From Acidimicrobiia bacterium (GTDB lineage Bacteria > Acidobacteriota > Vicinamibacteria > Vicinamibacterales > UBA2999): a stretch of 64,000 bases of DNA. Shown in pieces: positions 22,449 through 23,034 of this stretch. The notes beneath the pieces are model-generated. The model saw only the letters and a list, made by a program, of their open reading frames with translations, ran no database searches and was not told the DNA's origin. The position numbers were made by a program, and so were the translations under genes. The stretch is from contig VFZG01000004.1 of assembly GCA_016871275.1 (NCBI GenBank), positions 1 through 64,000 of the forward strand, written 5' to 3'. Positions within the stretch are counted from its first letter, which is position 1. Every line of letters begins with the position of its first letter.

Positions 22449-22522
22449 TGGGAGGTCGTTCAACGGTAGGACAGCGGACTCTGACTCCGCTTATCGGGGT
22501 TCGAATCCCTGCCTCCCAGCCA
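22449..22522 (+). tRNA. tRNA-Gln, anticodon CTG, with encoded CCA
   Basis: All arms fold by eye. The acceptor TGGGAGG pairs with CCTCCCA, the D stem closes as GTT/GAC, and the anticodon stem GCGGA/TCCGC holds the loop CTCTGAC (anticodon CTG reads codon CAG). The T arm has the loop TTCGAAT. The discriminator is G at 22519, followed by a genomically encoded CCA at 22520-22522. U33 and the T-loop consensus are conserved, so it should be functional. Confidence 0.97.
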
Positions 22523-22523
22523 T

Positions 22524-22600
22524 CCGCCTTCGCCGCGCCGAGAACTCAGGCGCGGCTATGGCGAGATGTCTCGCCGAAGCCCGAAGGGCGGAGGCGGACG
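22524..22600. repeat. Nested palindromic repeat just downstream of tRNA-Gln
   Basis: Outer ends TCCGCCTTCG and a degenerate GAAGGGCGGAGGCGGA are inverted. Inside are two perfect hairpins: GCCGCGCC/GGCGCGGC with a 9-base loop (22532-22556), and GGCGAGA/TCTCGCC with a 2-base loop (22560-22575). The first hairpin starts 10 bases after the tRNA CCA end and could also terminate its transcript. The composition resembles repeats I recall next to tRNA genes in Acidobacteriota. Confidence 0.55.
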
Positions 22601-22720
22601 CCTTCGAATTGTCTGATCGCCACTTGACGGCGCCGCACGAATCGAAGTGCGTGCCTTTGCCGTCATCGTGCAGATTCGTTCACGAATTCAGTTGGCGCGT
22701 GTCGTGCGTAGTCGGTTCAC

Positions 22721-22850
22721 ATGCATGGCATCGAGAAACGGACCGTCTACATACTCCCCAGCGACACCGATCCTTCACAGCACTACGTCGGCATCACCAG
22801 TGACTTGCGTAAACGGATCCGGACGCGCGTTCGCGACTCGGCACTTCGGG
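22721..22850 (+). pseudogene. Decayed GIY-YIG endonuclease-like reading frame
   Basis: The frame starting at the ATG 22721 reads TVYILPSDTDPSQHYVGITS followed by DLRKRI. This is the opening of a small GIY-YIG domain (VYIL at the GIY position, YVGIT at the YIG position, then the conserved arginine region). After about residue 40 the similarity disappears and the catalytic glutamate region is missing, so only the first strand-helix unit survives. It lies downstream of tRNA-Gln and the palindromic repeat. From 22850 to the promoter at 23035 I see no convincing gene. Confidence 0.5.
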
Positions 22851-23034
22851 CGCTGACTAAGGTTAGATCCTCCGGCGCGGTGCCGGTGAATGGGAACGGG
22901 ACGGGTGGGTGGCGGCGCACGATTCCTCTTTTCACATCGTGTATCGTTCGGGGATCATCGGCCTCGCTTGGCTGGTCGCCGCCAATTTCCTGGTCATCCT
23001 GGAAGTCCCGTGTACGGCTGTCCCATTGTGGGCG

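Follow-up and report, generated by a model that had tools for sequence, protein, structure and literature searches.

The 64,000-nucleotide stretch of DNA analyzed here (the window) carries, directly behind its tRNA-Gln gene, what we take, with a probability of about 0.6, to be a degenerate copy of a minimal selfish element that is anchored at the 3' ends of tRNA and tmRNA genes and is probably spread by its own nuclease. The element is apparently of an undescribed kind, with intact relatives behind tRNA or tmRNA genes in many bacterial phyla. An intact unit spans ∼0.3–0.6 kb, beginning where the mature RNA ends, and consists of two inverted REP-like hairpins, the first with the tRNA CCA in its stem, and a gene for a GIY-YIG nuclease of ∼80 residues. 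An earlier note on this DNA had seen in the locus the relic of a small mobile unit at tRNA 3' ends, a reading supported by the tRNA association, the hairpins at the RNA end and the existence of element-free sites.

The tRNA-Gln(CTG) gene that anchors the element (22449–22522, plus strand) was found by both ARAGORN and Rfam as the sole tRNA gene in the window, with its encoded CCA at 22520–22522 on the same strand; its neighbors are an HbpS-like gene upstream and a PfkB-type kinase gene downstream. A 76-base structure begins at the first base 3' of the CCA and is bounded by an outer inverted repeat, TCCGCCT (22523–22529) and AGGCGGA (22592–22598), which has no strand of its own and forms part of the minimum-energy fold. 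Based on sequence and fold, the first REP-like unit (22521–22568, plus strand, inverted) has an outer stem, CATC (22521–22524) with GATG (22565–22568), that extends into the tRNA CCA, and an inner stem, CCGCGCC (22533–22539) with GGCGCGG (22549–22555), that makes a perfect 7-bp hairpin. Another perfect 7-bp hairpin, the strandless central palindrome GGCGAGA-TG-TCTCGCC (22560–22575, arms 22560–22566 and 22569–22575), is the meeting point of the two inverted units. The second REP-like unit, TGTCTCGCCGAAGC..GCGGAGGCGGAC (22567–22599, plus strand, pattern match 22567–22598), has a 3 × 3 purine internal loop and contains a small third hairpin (22579–22582 with 22586–22589). The array is made of two facing copies of one REP-like unit, the second being TGTCTCGCCGAAGC..GCGGAGGCGGA (22567–22598) and the first its inverse. 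Folded as DNA, positions 22519–22603 reached -28.9 kcal/mol versus -20.2 ± 2.3 kcal/mol in shuffles (n = 200), a z of -3.8 with 0 of 200 shuffles as low. The two perfect hairpins that the earlier note had placed within an outer inverted repeat directly 3' of tRNA-Gln were borne out by both sequence and fold. Rfam covariance models matched only tRNA in the window and 20 loci, and held no family for the hairpin structure.

A spacer of 121 bases (22600–22720, plus strand) leads from the hairpins to the N-terminal part of a GIY-YIG gene (VYILPSDTDPSQHYVGITSDLRKR, 22721–22825, plus strand), detected with Pfam and with the profile of its relatives. The frame from 22721 matched Pfam PF01541 over residues 8–35 only (profile 3–29) at 19 bits, under the curated cut-off, while 22745–22825 matched positions 2–28 of A1, the profile of intact relatives, with an E of 3e-6, in agreement with the decayed GIY-YIG frame, N-terminal part present, that had been proposed for this locus. 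A C-terminal remnant in another frame (GSGRAFATRHFGR, 22812–22856, plus strand, stop at 22854–22856) was found with the relatives' profile as a weak match of 22812–22847 to A1 positions 66–77 (E 0.8); it ends a few bases past 22850, where the first reading had stopped. Since a gap separates the N- and C-terminal matches, the middle of the gene, ∼37 of 78 profile positions, is gone, and since the two parts lie in different frames, the decayed frame corresponds to an internal deletion with a frameshift. The family-invariant His29 and Glu61 fall in the missing middle, and the window copy has no complete GIY-YIG catalytic domain. Judged from its sequence, the window nuclease, with the His/Glu region lost, cannot work.

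An intact counterpart of the window copy was found in an Acidobacteria MAG (L107, JADGOB010000276.1), where a 25-base 3' fragment of tRNA-Gln is followed by hairpins nearly identical to those of the window, a spacer partly alignable with that of the window and an intact 89-residue nuclease; mean column identity to the window copy was 73% in the alignment. Within the host genome, the A1 profile gave further weak GIY-like matches at C5 and C31. An intact GIY-YIG gene accompanies none of the other host hairpin copies; a single match exceeded the cut-off, and that one is UvrC-sized.

A search of 60 genomes of relatives with PF01541 gave 45 standalone GIY-YIG loci, of which 44 were counted, L036 being left out for coordinates that failed to yield the frame. 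The proteins were of two types, type A (ending in ..YLKSGSGRAFAKRHF) and type B (ending in ..QLKRWSRAKK). The PF01541 cut-off of 22.6 bits was exceeded by L107 (31.6), by a second Bradyrhizobium type (type 2, 73.3) and by type B (63.3), and Pfam score and fold place the intact relatives in the GIY-YIG nuclease superfamily. In a confident model of the L077 nuclease (pLDDT 95.9, pTM 0.83), strands and helices follow one another as expected of a GIY-YIG fold. The nearest solved structures were UPF0213 1zg2 and SLX1 by sequence and SLX1 and 1zg2 by fold, with no Foldseek match under E 0.001. SLX1 is a cutter of branched DNA, and by analogy an SLX1-like cutting of branched DNA would suit extruded hairpins. 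The possibility that the C-terminal motif RAFAKRHF is the translated left palindrome GCCTTCGCC was ruled out, as its codons vary freely. A phage or plasmid origin was also rejected: at 1e-5, relatives of the nuclease occurred in none of 50,697 phage or 72,556 plasmid records, and one relative was present in viral contigs.

Type A profile A1, built from ten proteins and biased in that seven of them came from loci behind tRNA or tmRNA, was scanned over 84,980 named species genomes and gave 533 confirmed matches, the best 80 of which formed the named set. Among these best 80 of 533, a tRNA (43) or tmRNA (19) lay directly upstream of the nuclease on the same strand in 62 of 80 loci, and the repeat is thus associated with tRNA and GIY-YIG genes elsewhere, the point on which the earlier note had staked its proposal. 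The tRNA was on the strand of the nuclease in 43 of 43 cases. Only seven further tRNA or tmRNA genes lay elsewhere in the 80 loci, a rate from which, by our own arithmetic, ∼0.7 upstream genes would be expected by chance; 20 UvrC loci from the same genomes (∼125 kb) contained no tRNA. The remaining named loci had a 3' fragment upstream (4), neither gene nor fragment (9) or less than 500 bp of upstream sequence (5). The nine without tRNA or fragment (L104, L105, L108, L123, L128, L156, L167, L168, and L177) were counted as misses; by eye, hairpins were present in at least L105, L123, and L167, and a near-miss tmRNA end in L128. The tRNAs of the named set, again the best 80 of 533, served 11 amino acids, with 13 phylum labels across the 80 rows. 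Tree analysis of the GIY proteins, poorly resolved, had the isotype change 33 times among 71 rows; close relatives often retained the same tRNA, and much of the inheritance may therefore be vertical. Copies next to a tRNA with an intact GIY-YIG gene, for which a search had been suggested, were also found. Among the 44 loci of the 60 relatives, a tRNA or tmRNA on the nuclease's strand immediately preceded the gene in 12 of 21 type A loci, with a 3' fragment in 2 more, and in 8 of 23 type B loci, with a fragment in 3 more.

In most loci the element starts immediately 3' of the CCA and its hairpins begin at the RNA end. The canonical junction reads CCA-xxx-TTCGC..GC-TTC-x'x'x'-T(n)GG-C(A/G)AGCC, followed by ..GCGAAx'x'x' and next by the second hairpin. 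With the junction triples anchored independently on the right arm, the triple after CCA was complementary to that of the right arm in 45 of 48 cases, with seven pair types; 20,000 shuffles of the right arms gave a mean of 27.3 and a maximum of 37. Left arms other than GCC matched by pairing in 11 of 12 cases. The stem often extends as CCA/TGG, so that the tRNA's own end forms part of the hairpin. Of 149 tRNA flanks ending in CCA, with or without the element, 40 contained an exact CCAxxx..xxxTGG, versus 5.3 in shuffles. The first stem is thus made of the tRNA's own CCA and three element bases, paired with covarying downstream bases. A CCA supplied by the element was considered and not retained, with one case against it: in G062 (Planctomycetales), where most listed tRNA genes have no encoded CCA, element L117 begins directly after the discriminator base. 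The right arm of L117 has no TGG, in this single case.

Presence and absence of the element at orthologous sites was found at tRNA-Ala in Bradyrhizobium and at tRNA-Gln in the genus of the window. Of 60 Bradyrhizobium genomes searched, 21 were read at tRNA-Ala (20 regions and L328), where the same tRNA gene adjoins the same MarR-like gene in several states: gain, loss and replacement of the element were seen at this one tRNA gene, with hairpin type matched to nuclease type. The site had no element in L373, nor in L374, where other DNA had entered. It held a short remnant in L371, hairpins alone in L361, L367, L372, and L377, and, in L358, hairpins with a C-terminal nuclease remnant closely resembling the window. 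Nuclease type 1 was present in six genomes, all with GCCTTCGC hairpins, and type 2, some of its genes broken, in seven, with CGCTTC hairpins in six and decayed ones in one. No mixed pairing of intact hairpin type and nuclease type occurred among these 13 nuclease-bearing copies, although the genomes are related and the counts of states are therefore not independent. Only the hairpins and the GIY-YIG gene lie between tRNA-Ala and the next gene, with no integrase gene. An exact pair of empty and filled sites was not found in Bradyrhizobium, the empty L373 aligning only in the next gene. Within the window's genus, tRNA-Gln had hairpins in G008 and was bare in G002, G004, G005, G006, and G007. The empty tRNA-Gln sites that the earlier note had anticipated were thus found in five genomes of the genus, but not as an exact empty site for the window locus, since the relatives' tRNA-Gln genes lie in different surroundings. 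As a separate observation, a large insert with an apparent integrase N-terminus parts tRNA-Ala from its usual neighbor by ∼18 kb in L374 (G075).

The unit ends at about the stop codon of the nuclease, as seen in Bradyrhizobium, and both solo and cargo-carrying copies of it occur. Two tandem units of ∼590 bases each lie behind tRNA-Glu in L043 (G002), both closed by an identical 15 bases and 16 bases of the tRNA 3' end. The first carries a type B nuclease and the second a DUF433 gene with the start of a DUF5615 gene, likely a toxin–antitoxin pair carried as cargo of a tRNA-end unit. In L147, a unit of 311 bases carries a GIY-YIG gene of yet another type, together with 33 bases copied from the tRNA-Ile end. 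A far-side direct repeat of the tRNA 3' end was clear in L043 and L147 and absent, at a length of at least 13 nt, in most loci. The left end recurs after 391 bases in L121 and after 362 in L148. L067 (G050) has a 25-base tmRNA 3' end at three places in a span of 9 kb; at two of these, the same type B unit comes next. In L299 (G062, 1650–2400), two genes that by reading look like HicA and HicB are flanked by tRNA-Glu on one side and by a 22-base repeat of the tRNA 3' end on the other.

The host genome contains further copies. Among the other host tRNA genes whose 3' flank could be read, 8 of 36 have a type A hairpin directly 3' of the CCA (Trp, Thr-GGT, Gly-TCC, Arg-ACG, Val-GAC, Pro-GGG, Ala-GGC, and Ala-CGC); by reading of the sequences, pairing was exact in seven and wobble in one (Thr). 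At others, the remains are truncated or of type B. The right-arm pattern GGNTGGCRRGCC occurred 43 times in the host genome, compared to 22 for the reversed control, and 7 of the 43 copies followed a same-strand tRNA by no more than ∼110 bp, with 0.02 expected (own arithmetic). A strict pattern of the second hairpin was present in 57 of 60 genomes; host copies numbered 34, compared to 4 in the reversed control, and relatives had as many as 193, compared to 0. The dispersed units were REP/REPIN-like, i.e., short palindromes, often in inverted pairs, with minus and plus neighbors 3–6 bases apart in G052. The strict pattern was enriched at GIY-A loci: it occurred at 7 of 21 of them, 7 times in 24 kb, versus 3 times in 89 kb of their flanks, and not in 27 kb at GIY-B loci. 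Median copy number was 62 in genomes with GIY-A (n = 16) and 22.5 in the others (n = 44; p 0.002), with genome size and kinship uncontrolled. Dispersed REP-like units also occur in genomes without a standalone GIY match.

A homing mechanism would account for the spread of such an element. The nuclease would cut an unoccupied site, either close to or at its tRNA 3' end or in its extruded hairpins, and recombination repair through the short 3' sequence common to tRNA genes would copy the unit in. Copies without a nuclease may have been mobilized in trans or may be deletion remnants. A more specific proposal, which we regard as possible though doubtful, is that the units form a distinct and widespread class of minimal mobile elements that find their site by base pairing of first-hairpin bases with the tRNA CCA, together with an SLX1-like nuclease, specific for structure, acting on the hybrid hairpin or cruciform. 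As the first hairpin pairs with CCA, any tRNA-like 3' end, of tRNA or tmRNA, could then serve as host, and the units would be a GIY-YIG counterpart of REP/RAYT and a source of otherwise orphan REP-like repeats. If the reading as a nuclease-spread selfish element is right, a nuclease of ∼80 residues and two hairpins suffice for an element settled behind tRNA and tmRNA genes in many phyla. It would also give a context to many small GIY-YIG genes that stand alone in bacterial chromosomes, a candidate mobilizer for REP-like palindromes without a transposase, and a simple test system made of a small protein, a tRNA end and a hairpin in which CCA pairing is open to mutation and rescue.

Ordinary integrase islands also leave tRNA 3' fragments at such sites, and the units could instead be passive miniature islands, put at tRNA 3' ends in trans by tyrosine or serine integrases, with the GIY-YIG gene as cargo. 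The 3' fragments of ∼16–33 nt of tRNA or tmRNA beside some units and the DUF433/DUF5615 pair in place of GIY-YIG in one of them are consistent with this. Ends of tRNA and tmRNA genes are classic integrase sites, as in Dehalococcoides, where the accessible text describes integrative islands at ssrA with 20-bp ssrA repeats (PMC3146451). By the same portion of that text, the likeness extends to the tRNA or tmRNA 3' end as target, some 3'-end repeats and tandem units, whereas the tRNA-end unit is of ∼0.4 kb, has no integrase and has a hairpin at its junction. This origin is unlikely, as it leaves the CCA pairing and the matching of nuclease to hairpins unexplained, and accords poorly with a Bradyrhizobium unit of hairpins and GIY-YIG gene only and with the lack of a direct repeat of at least 13 nt in most units. 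A function in RNA, with trailer hairpins serving tRNA processing, termination or downstream expression and the nuclease gene borrowing the tRNA promoter, would fit the common strand of unit and tRNA in all 43 tRNA cases among the best 80 of 533 loci, as well as a covarying stem that includes the mature CCA. It is improbable given that orthologous tRNAs of close relatives have no hairpins, that many isotypes and tmRNA are involved, that related units lie away from tRNAs and that no Rfam family fits. A chance meeting of an arbitrary palindrome with an unrelated piece of a gene beside a tRNA can be practically dismissed, having nothing in its favor and being contradicted by the association across the 80 loci (best 80 of 533), the fold, the profile match, the stem pairing, the host copies and L107.

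The units resemble REPtrons in their inverted pairs of short palindromes with one small nuclease gene beside them, in dispersed copies without nuclease and in matched types of nuclease and palindrome. The palindromes might then be REPs moved by a Y1 (RAYT) transposase, with the GIY-YIG gene a passenger, which we consider quite unlikely. Y1_Tnp was found in 45 of 60 relatives and five times in the host genome, inverted doublets look like REPINs, and the median number of REPs was 34 with RAYT versus 3 without. Copy number of the strict pattern also rises with the number of Y1 transposase (RAYT) genes (Spearman rho 0.56), with genome size and kinship uncontrolled. However, the 94 kb surrounding 30 RAYT genes contained a single strict REP, whereas 7 of 21 GIY-A loci (24 kb) had the pattern, and G051 and G052 have 66 and 102 REPs, yet no Y1_Tnp match at E 0.001. 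RAYTs also leave the tRNA-end position and the hairpin/nuclease matching unexplained. Unlike REPtrons, in which a Y1/HUH transposase is flanked by REPs, the unit holds a GIY-YIG gene in its place and is anchored at tRNA-like 3' ends. The available part of PMC3733652 describes GTAG and CGTC REPs, with no transposase found for the latter, and does not mention GIY-YIG; judged from that text, the tRNA-end units fit neither tag.

Elements of the IS200/IS605 family carry a hairpin at their end, and their short target pairs with bases of the element. A likeness by analogy only may be drawn in the end hairpin and in the pairing of target with element bases, but the tRNA-end unit has no Y1 transposase and its hairpin borrows bases of the tRNA. 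SegB, a free-standing GIY-YIG homing endonuclease of T-even phages, is described in the accessible sections of PMC13096335 as a frequent associate of tRNAs that initiates recombination between tRNA sequences. Both are small GIY-YIG nucleases beside tRNA genes; unlike SegB, the present units are chromosomal and lie directly behind one tRNA or tmRNA 3' end, and their covarying hairpins take in the CCA. No description of GIY-YIG genes, tRNA ends and palindromes together in bacterial chromosomes was found in searches of the open-access journal literature, nor is this combination described in the available parts of PMC12306157, PMC13096335, PMC3146451, and PMC3733652.

Apart from the hairpins, a GGTCCATTCCGGTCACATGGGTAAC-like sequence was observed in the host genome directly behind several tRNA genes or in hairpin remains there (L378, L381, L403, and L404), and may represent one end of an insertion sequence with a preference for tRNA-end sites. 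Another host copy of the repeat unit (L012, C35:5505–5541) apparently lies inside a coding sequence resembling an AMP-binding enzyme, perhaps in frame.
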